Assembly (NCBI GenBank): GCA_015146655.1
Contig: VKHL01000025.1
Location: 124,001 to 188,000, forward strand
Reading direction: 5' to 3'
DNA: 64,000 bases
From: Ochromonas danica
Taxonomy: Eukaryota; Sar; Chrysophyceae; Chromulinales; Chromulinaceae
The notes beneath the pieces were generated by a model. It was not told the DNA's origin, made no database searches, and saw only the letters and a list, made by a program, of their open reading frames with translations. A program made the translations under genes and the position numbers. This document shows, piece after piece, positions 323 through 30,636 of the stretch. Numbering within the stretch: position 1 is the stretch's first letter; every line of letters starts with the position of its first letter.

Positions 323-3300
323 ATGAAAGATGAGATTAAGGAAGTTATCACGGTGCTGTTCCATGCCGCATTGTTGGGAAGAGCTGATATCATCAAGGTA
401 TTTTTAACTCTTGTCAACCGCCACCATATGATGTCGTTCAATCCCTTTGAATTGCCTGGCAAAGAACGCAATCAACAGCCTCCAAAACAATGGAAATGCT
501 GACTCCAAGGATATCAGCAAAATAGTATCGTTCTGTCGTGTTGAGGATAAAGCAACGCCTTTGCATATCGCATCCCTGCATGGTCATGCAGATGCTGTGC
601 GCACTCTGATCGTAAGCCAAGTGATGATTCACTTGTCATTTCTTTCATTGATTTGATGTGTTTCGTAGAATGCGGGGGCAGATTTGTCGATTTGTCCCTC
701 TAGCGGAGAGTTCGCAGGCAAGAGACCATACGAGGCCGCAAATGAAGCCGTACGCGCTGTCTACGAGGTCATGCTCTGTGAGAAAATCGCTGTGGGGGAT
801 AGTCAGACAGTGTTGTGTTTGCTTGATGGAGGTGTGGCCTTGGGAGAGGGATTGCATTGGGCATCGGCGTTCGGCCGTGAGGAGTTGGCACGTTTGCTCT
901 TGTCTCGCGGTGCTGACCCACATTTGCCTGATGCAAATGGACATTCCTCTCTTTATCTCGCGGTCAAGCACAGACAACCACAAGTAGTTCGCTTGCTTCT
1001 TGAGGAGGGTGGGAAAATACAGCAGGATGAAGAGGAAGTCATACGCAACCTGCTGCCAGCCGAGTCAACGGATTCAAAAGTGCTGGAGATCCGGGAACTA
1101 CTCGACCACCCTCCTCCTCCTTCCCTGCACTCTTTACGAAGCCAATACTTGAGCTCTCTTCAAGACCAGGATGGTGTCGATGGAACTTTGGCTGCTACTG
1201 CGGAAGTTGCTGCAGAGGTTGATGATCGTGACGAAAGCAGTGCAACAGATCAGCTCAATCGACTGTTGGTCTTCTGGCCGCCAGTGAGGCGTCAAGTCAG
1301 GGAATCATCCTCGTGGATGGGAGATGGCGATGCTGGTTTGCGGCTAAAAGACAAACAAGCAATATCTGTGGGGGGTAATGGGTTGATCTTGCGTACTGAC
1401 CAAAACCTCGTAGTTTGTCTCGCAAACAATGAGATCGATGCCTTTCCTGTGCTCAATTGGTCTGGTTTTCTGGATTGTATGGAGATCTATGGATTTGAAG
1501 TGCAGGTTCGACCACGAGCTGAGGCTGCCATACGCCTCGTTGTGGATTCTCACGTTTGCCCTCTACCACAAAGCTACCGCCTCTCTTGTACCGCACGGGA
1601 GCTCAGCGTGATTGCCGCTGATTACAGTGGTCTTCTCTACGGTATGCAGACGGTCGTGCAGATTATTCAACTCCATGGGGTTCTAGAGGTCGTTCATGGC
1701 GCTGCTGCTATTGTGGGCGAGGAAGGACAACACAGAACAGTTAAGCAGCTCACGTTGCCATCTCTTCATCTTCTCGACTACCCGCAGACGCCTCAGCGGG
1801 CGGTGCTCTGGTCGTTCCAACAACAAGTTCGGACTCAGTCTCAGTGGTTACGTGAGACTGTCGAGTTGATGGGTCGACTCCGTCTCAACATGCTGCTCTT
1901 GCTTATCGACCCAGTGTTACCTGATGAAGAGGAAGAAGAAGAGGAGGATCGTGTGTTGGGTGGAAGCAATGGCCGGCTGGTATTGCGCAACTTTGCTGTT
2001 TTTATATCTGGCTGTAGCTTATATTTCTATCTGTTTTGTTGTTTTTGCAGCAGGCAGTGACTGAGCGATTAAGTAGCCTTGATGAAGACTGTCGACGACG
2101 CTGTGTGGAACTCGTTCCCACTTGTCGTCTATCGCATCCTGATGAAAGGTATTCTCTAAAGTTGGTGATGCTGTGCGATGCTTATGATTTAATTATCGAT
2201 TCTCTCGTGTCAATCATCTGCAGATTGCCATTGACTCTGTTGAAGGCCTTTTCGCAATCTATGATAACCTTGATGCTCGATTATGATGATATCTCTGGCC
2301 GCACTGAGAATGCTGACTATGTTGAGCAATGTCGGTTGGCAAGCAAGAAAGTGTTGAGAGAAGCGCAGCTCGCTGGCTTCAGCACTGTCCAGATTGTGAT
2401 TTCGCCTTGGTTTTCGAGGAAAATCAGCTTTCATGTAAGCTCTCCTAACCTCTTGTCTTCGCGCTGTTCACTTCTCTTTACTTTATCTTTTCCAGGAACT
2501 TTCTCATCAAGTGGGGATCACATTGATTCGAAGAGAACCTTCTTTCCTTCTGCCACCATTGCTACTCAACAAGCCTCTCGTTGCATGCCATGACTTCGTG
2601 CATGGTTTAGGGCAATATATGGAAGAATGTAAGTTATTCCTCTTTTCCTTTTGTCATTTGGTCTAATTTTATTCCGCAATGATAGTGCACGCCTCTCTCG
2701 CTCAATGTTCCATTTTCCCCGCCCTTCTTGAGAAGGACTTTTGTTGCCCTTCCTTGATCATCAAAGTAATTCCCAGTTTCTTAATAGTATATGCCATGTT
2801 TCTTAGTCAAAACTCGTGCTTTCTGTCTATAGTACTATCTCTTCATGTATGCGGGTGCGGCGTGGAACGGCGAGGCTTTCCAAGATATTGTTGGCGACCA
2901 ATCAGCTCTAGCCTTCTATTCCACTTTGTTGGCTGATCTATTGCGCCTTCTCGTCTACCCATCTCATCGACTAGTATCTCCCTCTGCGATACAGGCCACA
3001 CTGTTTTACCTCACAGCTGATTGGACCCGTCTCAGTGATGCGGTTATGGAAAATAGAGAACCACAGGACAGCAATCGCCTCAGTTGTCGTGACCTGGCGC
3101 AGCAAGAGAGACTCATCTGGTCGATAGTTACGATGCCCTCAGAAAAAGTGCACAAGGCACCATTGACCCTATCAAAGCCCTCATTGACTCTTGTTCTCAA
3201 ATACTATCGTCATCTGTTGACGCTTGCTGACTGGAAAGTTAATCGCCTGCGGGAAAAAGCTGGTTCAGATAGCTTTTTCATGCAATTCTTTGGTTTATCC

Positions 3301-3810
3301 TCTTCCTCCCGTTCTAATTCGGATGGTCGAGATGTGGAGGAGGAGGAAGGTAGATCCTCTTGTATCCTCGCAATTGAATTGGAGGAGTTCTTTACGATCA
3401 TCAACCTTCTCAGCACAGCATGTAAAACGATACTACATGGCATGAATGCGGTTCAAAAGCACGGCAAAGAGACTCTAACATCTAGTTCAATTGTAACAAC
3501 CAGTTCCTTGCAGTCTTTAATGTCTCCATTGTCGATTGGAGGCAAATCAGACAGTGCCAATATCCTTCTGGAGGCATTGTCTTGTCTTCCTCTCCTGTGG
3601 CGAAAGAGGTTTGATCATGGTCTAGTGGATGCATTGTTGGCGTCAATGGTAGCTTTGCCAGATGTTCCAGTGCATCTGCAAAACAATCACCGTGATACGC
3701 ACCATAGCCTGCTGCCTTCTAGTCTCTTCATTCCGAGTATGGCATTATTGCAAACATTGTGTGACGGCATCTCTTCAGTTCATACTTGCATCGAGCGAGT
3801 CTTTCATTAA
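323..3810 (+). CDS. Ankyrin-repeat protein with a degenerate GH20 (beta-hexosaminidase-like) fold
   Basis: Eight exons fit in phase: 323-397, 465-611, 669-1979, 2051-2148, 2224-2434, 2496-2628, 2686-2765 and 2833-3810, giving about 1,010 residues. Residues ~10-160 are ankyrin repeats (TPLHIASLHGHADAVRTLI; then ARLLLSRGADPHLPDANG). Residues ~385-405 (IAADYSGLLYGMQTVVQ) match the small alpha/beta domain that precedes GH20 barrels, and LPSLHLLDYPQTPQRAV matches the start of the GH20 barrel (I-x-D-x-P-x-x-P-x-R-G). The usual H-x-H-x-x-D-D strand is replaced by LLLLIDPVLPDEEEE, and I see no catalytic Asp-Glu pair, so it is probably not an active hydrolase. The C-terminal ~320 residues are helical with no family I recognise. 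The protein is clearly paralogous to the N-terminal part of the kinase at 24.5-28.8 kb, and the short seventh exon was found by that alignment. No signal peptide is seen. It is probably a cytosolic scaffold or sensor. Confidence 0.75.
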
Positions 3811-4061
3811 GTGAGCAAAGGGCAACTAGTGGGTCATGGAGCTTTCTCCCTTAGGGGAAGGCTCAGTCTGACCTTAATGTTCTCACTGATGAGTCAGTCA
3901 TATTCACTTTTTTCGGTACTTTCTAGCTGTTGTTAGTTAGCTATCTAAAAGGATTATTTTTGCAGTTGTCTGTGTATAGTGATGTATTTTCCATCGTCTT
4001 TTTCTGCTTGAATTGGGAGAATTCTCTTGTTTGAACACGAAAGTTTACTCAGACATATTAC
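3811..4061. other. Intergenic 3' region between convergent genes
   Basis: This 251-bp stretch separates two gene ends that face each other (ankyrin/GH20-like gene and KTI12). It is T-rich on the plus strand, as expected of 3' UTRs. I see no further gene or repeat. Confidence 0.5.
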
Positions 4062-19363: not shown

Positions 19364-19707
19364 CGCTTCTTTGGCTCAGTGGTCAATTTGTTGGTGATGA
19401 TCGGCTGGTTTGTGGCTGACGAGAAGTCGCCTTTCAAGAACTGCGAGATATGCAAACTACGAGGTTTGGATAAGTGGGTAAATATTACAGTGTGCTGACC
19501 CTCTTCTCAAATGACAAAACAAAAGATGAAATGAATGTAATAATGCTAGACAAATGAGTTCTCTTCTCTTTTGCTTTGCATGGGGAAAATATTTTGCGTC
19601 TGTTTATGAAAGTCTTCTCATTAAAACCTTCCAATCCATATATTGACCAATGCACTGTGCTATTCCGACTTGGCAGTCGAGGTTCAGTGCACGAAGGCTC
19701 TGGTTGT
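19364..19707. other. Region between uL23 start and the inverted-repeat arm
   Basis: It holds the uL23 promoter. A frame open from 19576 runs into the truncated kinase copy and would add about 44 residues with no resemblance to the parent kinase, so I treat it as chance. Confidence 0.4.
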
Positions 19708-20990
19708 GTCGTTTGCTTATCTCTATCACGTGATGACTTTATCGCCATGATCGGCAGCTGGCAGGATATCCTGGGTGTCAGGCGGCCAGAAGCACCGCAA
19801 ATGCGCAAACAGCGACAATCGTCTGTTTATGACAGCAATTATCACATCTCTATTAGGTTGGCCGACTTGGATAGATTAAATACTCTTGGAATTGGTGCAT
19901 TTGGGCGCGTTTCCATTGCACGGCATAAAGTGTCGGGACAACTTTACGCTCTAAAGGCCCAGTCAAAGACCGCCATTGTGGATCAGGGCATGCAGGAAAT
20001 GGTGCTAACTGAAGTGAAGATAATGCGCATGATCGACCACCCCCTTATTGCGAAGCTCCATGGCACCATGCAAGATCGAAAGTTCATTTACTTCCTTCTC
20101 GAGCTTCTTCCTGGTGGAGAATTCTTCAACTTCTTGCAAAAAGTTGGAAAACTGAGTGAAGATAAGTCTCGCTTCTACGCGGGCTCCGTTGTGCTTGCAT
20201 TTGAAGAATTGCACAGAAACCGTATTGCCTATCGCGATCTGAAGCCAGAGAATATGGTAAGAGTGTGTTGACACACCTTGGATACCTTATAATGCAGCAG
20301 TCAATAACTTCACTTATTTCATTTCCCTCCCAGGTTATGGATGCAAGAGGCTACGTCAAACTAGTAGATTTTGGATTGGCGAAGCAGTTAGTGTCTGACA
20401 GCACATGGTAAGTAGTCCAACAAAATCCTTTTCTCTCAATCTGTTTATACTCATGATACACCTATTCTACAGGACAATGTGCGGTACACCTGACTATTTA
20501 GCACCGGAGATTATCCTTAGCAAAGGTCACAATCAAGCCGTTGATTATTGGGCATTGGTTAGCCTTCCCAGTGATTTCTTCATATGTCGTATCTTATTTT
20601 TCGTGGTCGTTTTTGTACTAGGGTGTCCTTATATTTGAAATGGTTCATGGATGGCCACCTTTCTATCACGAGCAGCCGATGAGAGTGTAAGTATATATAG
20701 CCTGATTATGCATGCCATTATTAATGGTGCTTTATGTATTTTGATTTGCAGGTATGAAAAGATTATTCTGGGAAAAGTCAGCTATCCTGATATGTTTTCG
20801 AAACCTTTGGAGGACATAGTCAGCAAGCTACTGGTAAACAATCCATCGAAACGATTAGGTAACATGAAGGGTGGGCTTGCCGATGTCATGAAGCATAAAT
20901 GGTTTGGTTCGTTCGATTGGCAAGGTCTGACAGCGGGAACACTTGAGGCGCCGTACGTTCCTGATTTAACGACTTTCGATTCTGTGCTTG
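19708..20990 (+). pseudogene. Truncated copy of the GH20-like/cNMP-kinase gene (inverted-repeat arm 1)
   Basis: This segment repeats, in opposite orientation, 24675-25957, which is the 3' half of the intact kinase gene. It begins inside the second cyclic-nucleotide domain ([18 protein letters not shown]) and keeps most of the kinase domain, from [13 protein letters not shown] through [11 protein letters not shown] and [10 protein letters not shown], with all introns. It stops short of the last exon. There is no start region, no cyclic-nucleotide domain A and no GH20-like part, and the 3' end runs into unrelated DNA. Translations of exons and introns appear identical to the parent, which argues for a very recent copy or recent gene conversion. 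It is probably not a functional gene. If transcribed, it would make RNA complementary to the parent's mRNA. Confidence 0.8.
19708..20990 (+). repeat. Inverted repeat, left arm (1,283 bp)
   Basis: Pairs with 24675-25957. Both arms are exactly 1,283 bp between the points where alignment breaks, so there is no net indel. Every stretch I compared, including introns, matched. The arms are separated by a 3,684-bp spacer. Beyond the inner end, 20997-21105 resembles 23970-24065 in reverse complement, but with clear divergence, so an older inverted relation flanks the apparently fresh one. Confidence 0.88.
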
Positions 20991-21105
20991 ACTTCACATA
21001 CATATCATACGCTCGCTCACTTTCAGTTGACATTCATTGTTCACCACCATACAGACAACTGTGAAGCACCAGCCAGTGCTATTTATTTATCTCTTTTTCT
21101 CTCTT
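20991..21105 (+). repeat. Diverged inverted copy of 23970-24065
   Basis: The core (tttcagttgacattcattg, then accatacagacaactgtgaa) occurs in reverse complement at about 24000-24060, followed on both sides by a similar A/T-rich tract. Differences and small indels are frequent, unlike the adjoining perfect arm. The junction to the arm lies near a shared cacatacatat, which may be the microhomology used in the rearrangement. Confidence 0.7.
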
Positions 21106-22435: not shown

Positions 22436-22720
22436 CAACAATTCTGGTTTCATTCAACCTGAACAACAATATAAAGTGTGCGCTGCCATCTGCATCTTCT
22501 TATATGGTTGCTTGGTCATTTTGAACAGTAGTCGGTGGTTGTCTGGTTGATTAAACTGCACTGATGATTGAAAGCCAGAGATGAGACGCAATCACCTACT
22601 TCACACGGCTCTCTAGCCGGCGAGTAAAGACAATAAAATTTTCTATTTGGTCTATCAGCAAATCGGCTTTTGCTTGCAATCAATTGACAAACTATCACCG
22701 CACCGCCGATTGAATGTGTA
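22436..22720 (+). pseudogene. Decayed copy of the small gene at 24070-24411
   Basis: Reverse-complement similarity to 24090-24415 is visible in blocks: acaattctggtttcatt, then caatataaagtg, gacgcaatcacct, and atcagcaaatcggcttttgc followed by ttgcaatcaat. Between blocks the copies differ by substitutions and indels, and the frame is not kept. It is a partial, old duplicate inside the spacer. Confidence 0.6.
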
Positions 22721-23990: not shown

Positions 23991-24069
23991 AATAGCTCTG
24001 GCTGTGGTGCTTCACAGTTGTCTGTATGGTGGTGAGCAATGAATGTCAACTGAAAGTGAGCGTATGTGA

Positions 24070-24411
24070 CTAGAACCGATATGTATGTGTGTAATCAGTG
24101 TGGTGGGTACCGGTAGGTAGTTCACCGATTGATTGCAAGCAAAAGCCGATTTGCTGATTTCCAATGATATCAATGTAAACACCGCGTACAAATTTGTAAG
24201 CGGAGTACAAAACACCACCAACAGCGCCTGTGAGAGCCACTTGAGGTGATTGCGTCGCATCACTCGCCTTCATGCTGCATCATTGCAGAAAATTCGACTG
24301 CATTTTTTATTATAAACCACTCTTCAAAATAACCAAGTACTATACAAGAAGATCCACATGGTAACTCACTTTATATTGCTGCTCAGGTTTAATGAAACCA
24401 GAATTGTTCAT
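24070..24411 (-). CDS. Possible small two-exon gene, 79 residues, one membrane-like segment
   Basis: Exon 1 24370-24411 begins with ATG and encodes MNNSGFIKPEQQYK, ending in a good donor (aaa|gtgagt). Exon 2 24070-24267, after a gaag acceptor, continues with ASDATQSPQVALTGAVGGVL and YSAYKFVRG, then a less ordered tail to a stop. The Ala/Gly/Val-rich part could be a single membrane helix. No family is recognised, and the tail may be read-through beyond a truncated gene. Two decayed copies occur at 22436-22720 and 23290-23440, which suggests a small duplicated unit. It is the least decayed of the three, but expression is unproven. Confidence 0.35.
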
Positions 24412-24477: not shown

Positions 24478-24640
24478 ATTAAACAGAAATAAATCACTAA
24501 ATTAATAACAGCCCACGTCCCTTCAAACGCTCAGAGCTCAGGCAACCAATCATTCTCCTGAAACATACGAAAAAGACTGATCAGCAAGCAGCATTCAGCA
24601 CTCAAAACAATCAACTTGTCATACCTCGGAGTCCAGTTCT
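24478..24640 (+). repeat. Direct repeat (copy 1) covering the kinase-gene last exon
   Basis: The partner is 23825-23990. The two copies flank the small gene at 24070-24411, so the gene sits in a ~0.6-kb unit between direct repeats. This copy includes the last exon of the kinase gene. Confidence 0.6.
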
Positions 24641-27600
24641 TCACCCTCGCCCGGTGACCGCTCACGCGCAGCGGCAAGCACAGAATCGAAAGTCGTTAAA
24701 TCAGGAACGTACGGCGCCTCAAGTGTTCCCGCTGTCAGACCTTGCCAATCGAACGAACCAAACCATTTATGCTTCATGACATCGGCAAGCCCACCCTTCA
24801 TGTTACCTAATCGTTTCGATGGATTGTTTACCAGTAGCTTGCTGACTATGTCCTCCAAAGGTTTCGAAAACATATCAGGATAGCTGACTTTTCCCAGAAT
24901 AATCTTTTCATACCTGCAAATCAAAATACATAAAGCACCATTAATAATGGCATGCATAATCAGGCTATATATACTTACACTCTCATCGGCTGCTCGTGAT
25001 AGAAAGGTGGCCATCCATGAACCATTTCAAATATAAGGACACCCTAGTACAAAAACGACCACGAAAAATAAGATACGACATATGAAGAAATCACTGGGAA
25101 GGCTAACCAATGCCCAATAATCAACGGCTTGATTGTGACCTTTGCTAAGGATAATCTCCGGTGCTAAATAGTCAGGTGTACCGCACATTGTCCTGTAGAA
25201 TAGGTGTATCATGAGTATAAACAGATTGAGAGAAAAGGATTTTGTTGGACTACTTACCATGTGCTGTCAGACACTAACTGCTTCGCCAATCCAAAATCTA
25301 CTAGTTTGACGTAGCCTCTTGCATCCATAACCTGGGAGGGAAATGAAATAAGTGAAGTTATTGACTGCTGCATTATAAGGTATCCAAGGTGTGTCAACAC
25401 ACTCTTACCATATTCTCTGGCTTCAGATCGCGATAGGCAATACGGTTTCTGTGCAATTCTTCAAATGCAAGCACAACGGAGCCCGCGTAGAAGCGAGACT
25501 TATCTTCACTCAGTTTTCCAACTTTTTGCAAGAAGTTGAAGAATTCTCCACCAGGAAGAAGCTCGAGAAGGAAGTAAATGAACTTTCGATCTTGCATGGT
25601 GCCATGGAGCTTCGCAATAAGGGGGTGGTCGATCATGCGCATTATCTTCACTTCAGTTAGCACCATTTCCTGCATGCCCTGATCCACAATGGCGGTCTTT
25701 GACTGGGCCTTTAGAGCGTAAAGTTGTCCCGACACTTTATGCCGTGCAATGGAAACGCGCCCAAATGCACCAATTCCAAGAGTATTTAATCTATCCAAGT
25801 CGGCCAACCTAATAGAGATGTGATAATTGCTGTCATAAACAGACGATTGTCGCTGTTTGCGCATTTGCGGTGCTTCTGGCCGCCTGACACCCAGGATATC
25901 CTGCCAGCTGCCGATCATGGCGATAAAGTCATCACGTGATAGAGATAAGCAAACGACGCGACCGACTGCAAGACAGGATGCTTGCCGCACATCATCTGCC
26001 AACAACGCTTTCTCACCAAAGTAATTTCCGCGGTGTAATGTCGCCACTTTAACACCGAGGGCTTGACGTTGACCAGTGACAGGGTCTACAGTATCCTGCC
26101 AAACATCCACCTGACCTTCCGCGATTATGTAGAAGTAATCGCCTGTTTGGTGTTGACGAATAATAACTGAACCATCTTCAAAATCCTCCACTTCCAACGT
26201 GGAAACAACTTTTCGGATTTCAGTTGGTGAGAGAACGTCACCAATACGCTTTTGTAGTATGCATACATTACTAACAAGATCGTAAAATTCATCTGACGTT
26301 TCCATATTATGTCTTGTCACAATAGTGCGATACGTATGTCTGTCGATTCGCCACAATGTACTAGCGGTAGATGAAATAATAGTCGCTGCACGGGGAGTAT
26401 TGTACATCAATGCCAATTCACCAAAGTAATCGCCGTGAACAAGCACGCGACCAACTTTAACATGAACTCCACACGATTCTACAAAGACTTCCAACTGACC
26501 GCTCTCGACAATGTAAAAGTACTCACCAGGGTCGCCTTGCTTGATGACTACCTCTGACGGTGCAACAGCAAAGCAGTCGAAAGCCTCCACAATTCGGCTG
26601 TGCTCTTCCGCTTTGAAATTACGGAAAAGAATATTCTGTCTGACGACGTTGGTGAGCAACGCAGTGATTTCGGAGGACTTGGGAACTACCTTAATTTGAT
26701 AGGGCTGGGTTACGTCAAGCAAGTCGTAGACCGCGGCACGCTTTTGTTGAGGATTTTGTAGCTCCGCAAGAGCAACAGAAGGAGAAGCAGTGGAGCCAAC
26801 CTCGTCGTTTCGATGGATCATACGAGAGCTCGAACCAGCACCTCCGGAAGCAGATAAATCGGTTGGGATCAAGTTCGGAACACCAGGTATTATTGTAGAA
26901 GTGGTAGTTTGGATGAAATATGACGCTCGAGAAAAGAATGCGAGCCAATCAATCATTGCAAAAACTTCCTCCACTTCCGATAGGCCTTGAGGTGTAGATC
27001 CATTACCGCCGCGCAATAACAGATTTCGCTTTTTCTTCAGTCCAAATGCACTGAGTCCGGCTTCTGAGAGCAATTGACGATAGAAATGATAGCTCTGCAA
27101 GCAAGCATGAGAAGAAGACTTTAAGACCCTCTCCTCTTCTGCCATTTGAGATGGCGACGAGGTAGAGTTATCACTCATTCGTAGAGTCCAGAAGCTTTGT
27201 TCTATTGATGTCGTGCTCTCTACCAATGGCAGCGAGTCATTAACAGCATTGCGTGACACACTCTCCAGACATCCGAATAAGTCGAGAAGCAGGTCACGTC
27301 CAGCAGTCGGAGCAGTACCCTCTTCAGGACGCTTCACCATCTGCAAAATAACGTCGAGCAGACGAGAGCGATAGTGTGGATGTTGCACTATTTCCCTGGC
27401 ACAGTGAGCGCCAGCACAAGCGAGGGCTGCATAAAGCGCACAGTAATACTAAATAAAACCAAAATGAAACATTAAACAAGAAGATCAAATAGGCGAATCA
27501 AAGTAAGTTGTCTTGCCTTAAGGAGAAGATCTGGGCTCAGAAAGTCCCTTTCTGTTCTCCAGGGGTAGCAAAGGAACTTCGCACAATTGCTGTCCACTAC

Positions 27601-28797
27601 TTGTGCCATCGCCTCGAAATACGGCTTCACTAAAGCTAAAGGTTTAACAGCGAGGATAGGATCTTCAAGTTGCACACGGCTAATAACCTCAACTATTCCT
27701 GGCACTTCCATCTATCAGTCCACAGCAATGTGAGCAATAAACCGTTATCTTCTTAAATAACATGATATGGACGTCACCTGTTGCAAAGAAGGAAAAAAAT
27801 GATCCTCTACGCACAAGAAGAGCTTCTTAAATGATCCCAACCGCAACACATATTGCAACGCCTGTCCACCTTCTCCATCTAGGATGAGAAGGTGTTCACA
27901 TCGAGCAGAAGCCAGTTGTGCCACGGTGTCTCTCCAGTCCGACGAGTTCACAGCGTCAACAACGGGAACAAGAATTATAGCGTGCTTGCGAGAAAGCTCC
28001 TGTAGCTCAGAAAAGTCGACTGTCTCGCCATTTAACTCTCCATGCAAGAAGTCAACGTCAATCAGGAGGCGGTTGATACGTAAACTTGATAGTGTACGAA
28101 CAAGGGCTAAAGTAGTCCACCGAGCAGAAATAATCTACAATTCCGAAACATTCATGAGAAAAGAGGATTGCAGAAGCCAACAGATTCGGGACCGACAGAC
28201 CTGATGACTCAAAGAGACTCTGACAGCGCGCAGCGGAGAAGTTGGCGCATCGCTCAGAAGCAAGCAAGGCAGATGGATATGTTTGATTTTTTGTTCATAA
28301 TGAACGATGCTATTGTGCATGATGAGCTGTTTCAGTGTATTGAGGCCATAGATGGCGCCAGCATAGTCCGCAGCAATGAGGATGATCTTGTTCGACCGCA
28401 CTTGAATCTCATAGCTTTCCATACGAGTGCAGATCATTCGCTTCATGTAAATAAGAATAAGGGAATCACTAGGCCGGCTCTTCAGGGAAGAGGACAAGCC
28501 GCAGGCATGCAGCCACTCTAATGTGGTCGTGGCTTGGATGGCTTGAGCGCAGTCTGGATTGGCGGCGTAGATGCCGACTTCACTAGAAGAAGAGAGTATC
28601 AAATGCGCAGATTTCTCCATAAGCTTGAAGCGCTCGATGGGAGGCCAGACAGACAATATAACGCCATTTTGTATTGGTGCGCGTGTGGAAGAAAGGCGAT
28701 AATATTCTTCATCAAAACCGAAATAGCTAGTTTTGGTGGAATACCGCTCTTCCTCACCAGGACATAGTCCTCCCTCCTCTGAATCCAATTCTGGCAT
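24531..28797 (-). CDS. GH20-like domain / double cNMP-binding / AGC protein kinase fusion
   Basis: Nine exons fit in phase: 28201-28797, 27778-28134, 27517-27711, 25409-27448, 25258-25331, 25108-25192, 24979-25043, 24625-24913 and 24531-24557, about 1,242 residues. Residues ~1-385 are a GH20-like module: [34 protein letters not shown], then [20 protein letters not shown], with no visible catalytic Asp-Glu. A helical stretch follows. Domain A (~657-768) has the phosphate-binding cassette [15 protein letters not shown]. Domain B (~778-898) has [15 protein letters not shown]. The kinase (~933 on) shows [29 protein letters not shown] and [12 protein letters not shown]. The order is that of PKG, but the Arg-Ala-Ala-Thr cassette is the cAMP type of PKA regulatory subunits. 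Intron 3 uses a GC donor (aag|gcaaga), and its position matches an intron of the ankyrin paralogue. The last exon encodes only ENDWLPEL. Confidence 0.85.
24675..25957 (-). repeat. Inverted repeat, right arm (1,283 bp)
   Basis: Mate of 19708-20990. This arm lies inside the intact kinase gene, from the end of cNMP domain B to just before the end of exon 8. Confidence 0.88.
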
Positions 28798-29292: not shown

Positions 29293-30219
29293 TTAAGACT
29301 TGGAAGAAGATGCAGAAGAAACCACCGATTCGGGAAGAATCAGGTTGAACTTCGATATCTTAGCCGTGAAGTTATGTTGGCCCATATTGCCCTTGCACAT
29401 CGTGTAGGCACCACTCATAGTGGCTAGGACTCTCTTACCCTTCGGAGGGAAAACCTTGAGCGGACAAGCACTTTGATAAGTGAAAACATCCCCTGGTGCA
29501 ATGATCGGCTGTGTGCTCATGATACCCGCTCCGCGCACCACCTCTTTCTCTCCATGCCATTTCTCGATCTCCCACATTCGAGCTACAACTTGGACAGGTT
29601 CCGCACCTTCGTTATAGATCGCCACTTTATACCAAAACATAAACTTGCCATTGACTGGGTCAGACCGCTCTTGGTCGAAGAAGGAGCTCACTTTGATACG
29701 AATCTTCTCCGTGACAGTGTCGCTAAAGGTGCTGCCAGGATCTACTTCCTCCATAACTTCTTGATCCATAACAGAGGCTTCCAAGAGCTTCTGTTGATGA
29801 AATCTCTTGTATAGATCTGAAAGATGCGGAGGCAAATCAACCAACTTCAGTGCCTGTAGACATCGTGTTGCCTCGGCATCGTCACCTCGCTCAACTGCTG
29901 TCACATAATCACTGGATAGGCGAATAAAAGGGTCTGATGTCTTCAGATGAGCGCTCTGAGCTAACAGTTGGAACGCTTCATCTTTACTATCTGGGACACG
30001 TTCCGCGAGCAGCTGCACGGCACGCTTCTCCATCCCAGAGATTCGCTTCCAGAGATCCTTTCTATCCGAATCTGATAGACCGGAGTCTTTGCTGCTTTCT
30101 TGCATTTTTACCAAAGAACCTCCGTATCGTCCCATCGATCCTCTGTGAATCACGTTCATGTGGAAACTTCGAAGAAAGGGGGGCAACAACAACACGAGCA
30201 AGAAGGCGAAGTAGGACAT
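29293..30219 (-). CDS. ApaG-domain (DUF525) protein
   Basis: A single exon. From the ATG at 30219 it is 308 residues and starts MSYFAFLLVLLLPPFLRSFH, a possible signal peptide or anchor. ATGs at 30159 and 30135 would remove that segment. The frame continues still further upstream, so the start is open. Residues ~45-150 are helical (DRKDLWKRISGMEKRAVQLL; YVTAVERGDDAEATRCLQAL). The C-terminal ~130 residues form the ApaG beta-sandwich: YKVAIYNEGAEPVQVVARMW, then VVRGAGIMSTQPIIAPGDVF and ATMSGAYTMCKG. Eukaryotic ApaG domains occur in FBXO3, POLDIP2 and plant plastid or F-box proteins and are thought to bind proteins or nucleotides. I see no F-box here. Function is unknown beyond the domain. Confidence 0.8.
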   Translation of the reverse strand: MSYFAFLLVLLLPPFLRSFHMNVIHRGSMGRYGGSLVKMQESSKDSGLSDSDRKDLWKRISGMEKRAVQLLAERVPDSKDEAFQLLAQSAHLKTSDPFIRLSSDYVTAVERGDDAEATRCLQALKLVDLPPHLSDLYKRFHQQKLLEASVMDQEVMEEVDPGSTFSDTVTEKIRIKVSSFFDQERSDPVNGKFMFWYKVAIYNEGAEPVQVVARMWEIEKWHGEKEVVRGAGIMSTQPIIAPGDVFTYQSACPLKVFPPKGKRVLATMSGAYTMCKGNMGQHNFTAKISKFNLILPESVVSSASSSKS

Positions 30220-30636
30220 GACGAATACGATCGGGCCAATCAAGGAGCAGATATCCTTCCAGCTTGAGGGAAAAAATGACGAGGTGGAGGATTTGCTCAA
30301 GCAGAAGAAGCGAAGAGAACATTCCGCCCCACTGTGCTGACTCATTCTCAGAAACGTGTTTTTGTACCAGCTGCTTGTGCTGTGGTTCTGTGGAAGCTTC
30401 ACTGTGAACAGACTGGTTGAGCACAAGTACTTGAATGAGTAGTTGAGCTGCGGGATCACATTCAATACAAAAATCAACAAAAACCCCTGAGATCATTTAC
30501 GCGAAATCGGACAGTATATACATTCATTACAATCATTGCCTGAGAGAGCTCGGCAGCACACAACCCGCGTTCAGAGACTTAACGTAACCACACTCCAAAC
30601 AAAAAGAGACAGAACATAATAGCCTAAAGAAGTATG
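30220..30636. other. Region between the ApaG gene and the AP2-like gene
   Basis: 417 bp. The ApaG reading frame stays open through much of it (to about 30496), so an upstream start for that gene cannot be excluded. Otherwise nothing is seen. Confidence 0.4.

Follow-up and report, generated by a model that had tools for sequence, protein, structure and literature searches.

We analysed a stretch of 64,000 nucleotides of the Ochromonas danica genome (contig VKHL01000025.1, positions 124,001 to 188,000; contig C25 of an assembly of 31.2 Mb in 337 contigs), hereafter the window, in which a predicted gene on the minus strand joins a module related to glycoside hydrolases of family 20 (GH20) to a cyclic-nucleotide-dependent protein kinase. 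This fusion gene (24531..28797) is read as an in-frame spliced model of 9 exons encoding 1242 amino acids: exons 1 to 5 lie at 28797-28201, 28134-27778, 27711-27517, 27448-25409 and 25331-25258, and exons 6 to 9 at 25192-25108, 25043-24979, 24913-24625 and 24557-24531. The start codon, taken over from an earlier note on the same DNA, is putative. The eight introns measure 64-77 bp and are bordered by GT-AG in 7 of 8 cases, the third (27516-27449) being GC-AG. Exon 4 (25409..27448) consists of one open frame of 680 codons, which encodes residues 384-1063 and carries the end of the module, a linker, both cyclic-nucleotide (cNMP)-binding domains and the first half of the kinase. When the codon usage of the first 573 codons was compared with that of the rest of the gene, r was 0.58 in frame and -0.01 and 0.02 in the other frames. 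The earlier note had proposed one in-phase model in which a region with GH20-type landmarks is followed by two cNMP domains and an AGC kinase; the in-frame reading of the nine exons, the Pfam matches and the presence of the three landmarks bear this out.

In Pfam searches the kinase part displays, on one chain, two PF00027 stretches followed by PF00069. The best PF00027 stretch is cNMP-binding domain A (residues 678-762; 26312..26566, minus strand); the second one, domain B (about residues 790-890; 25928..26230, minus strand), was delimited by eye and has its cassette at residue 860. The AGC protein kinase domain (residues 937-1189; 24760..25789, minus strand) is matched by PF00069 with 217 bits. 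Its kinase motifs are intact and, as far as can be judged from them, the kinase looks active. Among solved structures, PKG I beta (7lv3) scores best, with 417.8 bits across positions 58-647 of the 677-residue query, and the best 60 of the 76 PDB sequences found at E ≤ 1e-60 are headed by six PKGs, which are followed by catalytic subunits of PKA. The fusion protein shares with PKG-type kinases (human PKG I, Plasmodium PKG, the PKGs of oomycetes and diatoms) the succession of two cNMP domains and an AGC kinase, and differs from them by its GH20-derived N-terminus and by the cassette motifs PRAA and VRQA, found instead of TRTA and VRTA. A kinome study reports PKGs in Phytophthora infestans and in diatoms (PMC3019232).

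Both cassettes retain the glutamate and the arginine of cNMP binders, and the threonine of the PKG I cassette is replaced by alanine in domain A and by glutamine in domain B. We take this threonine to be cGMP-selective and the glutamate and arginine to have their usual roles in such cassettes. Since the presumably cGMP-selective residues are replaced, it appears safer to call the kinase cyclic-nucleotide-dependent than cGMP-dependent, and the cGMP specificity implied by the term PKG in the earlier note is doubtful. In section 14 of PMC4412288, recognition of guanine is ascribed to contacts from the cassette and from strand 5. In the genome, the cyclase family PF00211 is matched 13 times (counted as exon pieces), which makes a cyclic-nucleotide ligand plausible. 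The closest paralogue lies on contig C49 (51% over residues 2-610 of the query). It shares the PRAA and VRQA motifs and, when read by eye, has a probable short first exon, MGSGAS, in place of the module; upstream of its cNMP-binding domains stands KKREAVLDR. In the fusion protein, the sequence QQKRAAVYD (residues 617-625; 26723..26749, minus strand) may be a pseudosubstrate, by analogy with the pseudosubstrates of PKA and PKG.

The N-terminal module, delimited by alignment with a second gene described below, covers about residues 44-525 (27023..28668, minus strand, introns included). Within it, GH20 domain 2 (GH20b, PF02838) was detected at residues 72-162 (28312..28584, minus strand), with 28.0 bits for the full protein and 29.5 bits for the N-terminal 573 residues, for a curated cut-off of 26.1, and with 33.3 bits on the exon in the genome search. 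GH20b is the sole Pfam family above its cut-off in these 573 residues; a match to the FANCM pseudonuclease family (13.7 bits for a cut-off of 23.6) was rejected as evidence. The catalytic barrel PF00728 gave no Pfam match in the fusion protein at E ≤ 1. When compared with PDB sequences (E ≤ 10) by phmmer, the module retrieved 9 rows, with GH20 enzymes in the top four places and in one further row, all weakly matched (best E 0.0092); with a two-row profile, all 10 sequences retrieved at the same threshold were GH20 enzymes by name (best E 0.0047). A tblastn search of 72,556 plasmid records with residues 44-318 (E ≤ 10) gave 10 records (best E 0.01). Four of them are annotated as GH20 under the match and six have no such annotation there; three of these six places were fetched (L052, L053 and the Nonomuraea place L054) and a GH20 frame was found in all three.

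The aligned modules of the fusion gene and of its paralogue in the window were compared by hhalign with 11 GH20 proteins, namely the O. danica hexosaminidase on contig C128 and 10 of the 11 GH20 regions taken from plasmid records, the Granulicella region (L056), annotated in pieces, being excluded. This single comparison gave a score of 98.6, a probability of 97.5 and an E-value of 8.6e-12. The highest score among 200 column shuffles was 28.3, the reversed alignment reached 19.0, and the cNMP-binding and kinase parts of the same protein reached 15.6 and 14.5; a chance match to GH20 was rejected on the basis of these controls. With single module sequences the scores were 77.3 and 70.3. The alignable stretch is confined to residues 112-261 (27949..28464, minus strand), which correspond to GH20b and barrel strands 1-3. 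A first GH20 profile, in which three rows were in the wrong frame (L050, L053, L054), had matched the N-terminus with 26.2 bits over residues 92-222 before the one above took its place. On this sequence evidence we conclude that the module descends from GH20, as the earlier note had supposed from the letters. A scan with the module alignment gave 49 stretches matching the pattern in viral contigs and 38 in prokaryote genomes, with no relative in either; a scan of the same type for relatives of the C128 hexosaminidase also gave none among 47 stretches, and such scans can therefore miss a large family.

The same module is present in a second gene of the window, behind ankyrin repeats, and this predicted gene is new here. 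It was reached by a search of the O. danica genome (E ≤ 1) in which the first 573 residues were the query; this returned four pieces of the fusion gene itself and one other place, 1461-1913 of the window (plus strand). The gene extends over 323..3813 (plus strand) and is modelled with 8 exons and 1009 residues (exons 1 to 4 at 323-397, 465-611, 669-1979 and 2054-2148; exons 5 to 8 at 2224-2434, 2496-2628, 2686-2765 and 2833-3813), with 2051 as a possible alternative to 2054 for the acceptor of exon 4. In its product, Ank_2 is matched with 63.3 bits and the module begins at about residue 270; GH20b scores 24.2 bits on the protein, below the cut-off of 26.1, and 27.4 bits on the exon in the genome search. 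The two modules, when each search was made against that one sequence, match with E-values of 8.8e-20 (phmmer) and 3e-13 (blastp) and are 24-26% identical (24% over 431 columns). Residues 44-261 of the fusion protein score 43.1 bits against the paralogue and residues 262-525 score 22.9 bits, the maxima of 100 shuffles each being 3.1 and 5.3. In addition, an intron of phase 0 is found at the same place in both genes, between LLLK and YYC in the fusion gene and between LIIK and YYL in the ankyrin gene; it is the one intron found in common among the three within the module of the former and the five of the latter. The ankyrin protein thus resembles the fusion protein by the module and one shared intron place, and differs from it by the ankyrin repeats in front and the lack of a kinase behind. 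The boundary of residues 1-385 given for the module in the earlier note comes close; the homology to the paralogue runs from about residue 44 to near residue 525, its last part resting on the fixed-place test reported below.

In the whole genome, GH20b was found by six-frame search (E ≤ 10) at three places, which are the fusion gene, the ankyrin gene and the C128 hexosaminidase. The latter keeps GGDE, is matched by PF00728 and starts with a hydrophobic leader; unlike this enzyme, neither the fusion protein nor the ankyrin paralogue shows a signal peptide by eye. We then aligned the module with the GH20 set, an alignment that is unreliable past residue 261. The arginine of the first barrel strand, in the motif RG..D.SR, is retained as R190, and the aspartate which follows it is replaced by serine. 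The loop HxHxxDD is absent, PEIDxPGH reads PVVDAVNSS, HxGxDE was not found in the module, and residues 191-525 contain no DE dipeptide. In the ankyrin paralogue the same arginine is kept and the other GH20 motifs are missing from the same alignment. We take these motifs to form the catalytic site and pocket of GH20 enzymes. Because one arginine is all that is left among the placeable active-site motifs, it is very improbable that the module is an enzyme, in agreement with the degeneracy noted before. Compared with GH20 beta-N-acetylhexosaminidases, the fusion module has in common GH20 domain 2 and barrel strands 1-3, and differs by its single remaining arginine, the absence of a PF00728 match and the attached kinase. 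The presence of the module behind ankyrin repeats, which are a protein-binding context, also suggests that it is now a docking or sensing part and not an enzyme.

The combination of an inactive glycosidase-like domain with a kinase has a parallel in tobacco CHRK1, a chitinase-related receptor-like kinase (PMC10573068, section 2.11). In contrast with the fusion protein, the CHRK1 domain is of chitinase type and extracellular, and its kinase is receptor-like. To our knowledge, CHRK1 has no cyclic-nucleotide domains. In O. danica itself, a frame of 991 residues on contig C27 (L031:373-3345, plus strand) encodes a PH domain, then three cNMP domains and the beginning of a kinase; its product resembles the fusion protein in being a cNMP-binding kinase with an extra N-terminal domain, and differs in having PH instead of GH20 and three cNMP-binding domains. 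Since added domains on such kinases occur elsewhere in the genome, the fusion is a variation on a known theme. Among the accessory domains of the P. infestans kinome are ankyrin, PH, cNMP and others, with no glycoside hydrolase in the part shown (PMC3019232). The earlier note knew of no description of the order GH20 module, cNMP domains, kinase; our searches of the open-access literature, judged from their listings, likewise gave nothing relevant.

Beside the fusion gene, we observed that 19702-20990 (plus strand) is an inverted copy of 24675-25963 (minus strand), with 2 differences in 1289 bp, introns included. The copied segment comprises the last part of cNMP domain B and the greater part of the kinase; the module and the bulk of the cNMP region are missing from the copy, in which the frame 19558-20271 is still recognised as Pkinase. 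It represents a recent duplication, gene conversion or an assembly artefact. Short inverted repeats accompany it (21014-21071 with 24005-24062, and 22654-22694 with 24118-24158), and since the centres differ, this is not one simple palindrome. At another locus (L039, C6:314500-324400), two genes for multi-cNMP kinases run in opposite directions; their scores are equal, their translated frames match, and they apparently form a further inverted pair. The same-strand neighbour upstream of the fusion gene (29293-30492, minus strand) ends at 29293, about 500 bp away, and encodes an ApaG domain towards its C-terminus. Elsewhere in the genome, C224:8673-16382 carries four light-harvesting matches of equal score in tandem, about 2.4 kb apart; the light-harvesting family PF00504 has 47 genome matches, one protein of which is closest in the PDB to LHCI, XLH12, VCPI-1 and FCP chains, and a search of the genome for PsaA/PsaB gave 0 matches. 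These light-harvesting proteins point to a photosynthetic eukaryote with a plastid of the red lineage, perhaps an ochrophyte.

As a whole, we favour, with moderate confidence, a PKG-type kinase in which the usual short N-terminus is replaced by a catalytically dead GH20-type module acting as a docking or dimerisation scaffold, with autoinhibition by a pseudosubstrate. The module would consist of GH20 domain 2, a shrunken barrel, possibly complete, and a further tail. The pseudosubstrate ahead of the first cNMP domain would block the active site, as in the family, and binding of a cyclic nucleotide, whether cGMP or another, would release the kinase. The dead module would position or tune the kinase or pair it with a partner, a task that falls elsewhere to a leucine zipper or to a myristoylated N-terminus.

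Several observations weigh against this reading. The barrel strands 4-8 appear to be without sequence support: in the hhalign comparison, residues 161-420 by themselves scored 25.9 and residues 257-420 13.3, both lower than the best shuffle. Residues 166-573 gave no match to the first GH20 profile, nor was anything significant obtained with pieces that lack GH20b. The GC donor of intron 3 and the exon 4 result of the free search given below count on the same side, and so does the low confidence of both structure models. The AlphaFold model of exon 1, built with one paralogous row, has a mean predicted local distance difference test (pLDDT) of 42.2; the 17 best of its 835 Foldseek matches belong to GH20, GH84 or GH138 (for some entries the family is presumed), with E-values of 0.007-0.25, and no match falls under E 0.001. 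GH84 enzymes share a GH20b-like domain. The model of exons 1-3, in which two in-frame introns were read through (22 foreign residues each), has a mean pLDDT of 38.9 and shows strands and helices alternating over residues 191-410, one strand touching intron-coded residues; its top fold match is human NLRP3, a protein without a barrel fold; further down the ranking, designed and natural barrels, as judged by their titles, are numerous, and no match lies below E 0.001. Both models are weak and we used them as hints, so that the presence of the rest of the barrel beyond strand 3 is only hinted at.

Could the locus hold two genes, the first running from exons 1-3 to a stop and the second, a separate kinase gene, beginning within exon 4? 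The GC donor would fit this, as would the fact that exon 3, read unspliced, meets a stop after 14 residues, at about 27472, that exon 4 contains internal ATG codons, and that a free search with its module part alone did not reach significance (29 of 100 shuffles equally good). However, exon 4 shows no stop over the roughly 290 codons that encode module and linker ahead of cNMP domain A, and in the alignment an intron of the ankyrin paralogue, of phase 0, coincides with intron 3. Directly behind this intron the start of exon 4 matches the paralogue: with the place fixed, 2, 4, 1, 0, 2 and 0 of 2000 shuffles were equally good for 20, 30, 40, 60, 100 and 142 residues, whereas the unspliced tail of exon 3 gave no match (1979 of 2000 shuffles equally good). 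The significance of the exon 4 homology depends on this fixed place. When the first 30 residues of exon 4 were slid along the whole paralogue, the top score fell at the place of the shared intron, tied with a place two residues earlier and with one unrelated place. The GC-AG splice, the weakest of the model, is thus backed by the intron place and phase shared with the paralogue and by the homology behind it. Given this homology, and given that the module end, the cNMP domains and half of the kinase stand in one exon, two separate genes are unlikely; we rejected two adjacent genes on the fixed-place match of exon 4, as opposed to the unspliced tail, and the arrangement with a stop at about 27472 seems to us very improbable.

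The module might be a second sensor that still binds, but does not cut, an N-acetylhexosamine or a glycosylated protein, and that gates the kinase together with the cyclic nucleotide. Its GH20 descent, the RG..D.SR arginine kept at R190 and in the ankyrin paralogue, the 12 matches (counted as exon pieces) that glycosyltransferases of family GT41 (OGT-type) have in the genome and the precedent of CHRK1, with its inactive glycosidase-like ectodomain on a kinase (PMC10573068, section 2.11), speak for this; against it, the RG..D aspartate, the HxHxxDD loop, PEIDxPGH and HxGxDE are lost or unplaceable. Because the residues that would hold the sugar are mostly gone, this is not our leading reading: we regard a docking or dimerisation scaffold as most likely and a sugar sensor as less likely, indeed as rather unlikely. 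The module could also be an inert passenger, drifting after a gene fusion of which it is a by-product, in a rearranged locus with the 1289-bp inverted kinase copy (2 differences) lying 3.7 kb away and at a large distance (26% identity) from its paralogue. Nevertheless, a long open module with kinase-like codon usage, and motifs conserved in comparison with a paralogue only 26% identical, suggest long constraint, and we give this explanation a small probability. A broader proposal, which we consider unlikely as well, is that in this algal lineage the dead glycosidase has turned into a cytosolic regulatory module, used on at least two scaffolds, the ankyrin repeats and the cyclic-nucleotide kinase, and that on the kinase it would read a sugar or glycoprotein signal, so that one chain would integrate the cyclic nucleotide with the state of carbohydrates.

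Kinases governed by cyclic nucleotides are textbook examples of switches, and their N-termini set where and with whom they act. At the level of nomenclature, an algal 'PKG' is not to be equated with 'cGMP-dependent' before its cassette residues have been checked. A glycosidase-derived module found on such a kinase and also behind ankyrin repeats provides a concrete example of what is apparently an enzyme converted to a role in signalling, and the fusion poses a direct question, which is whether the module binds a sugar, a protein or itself.

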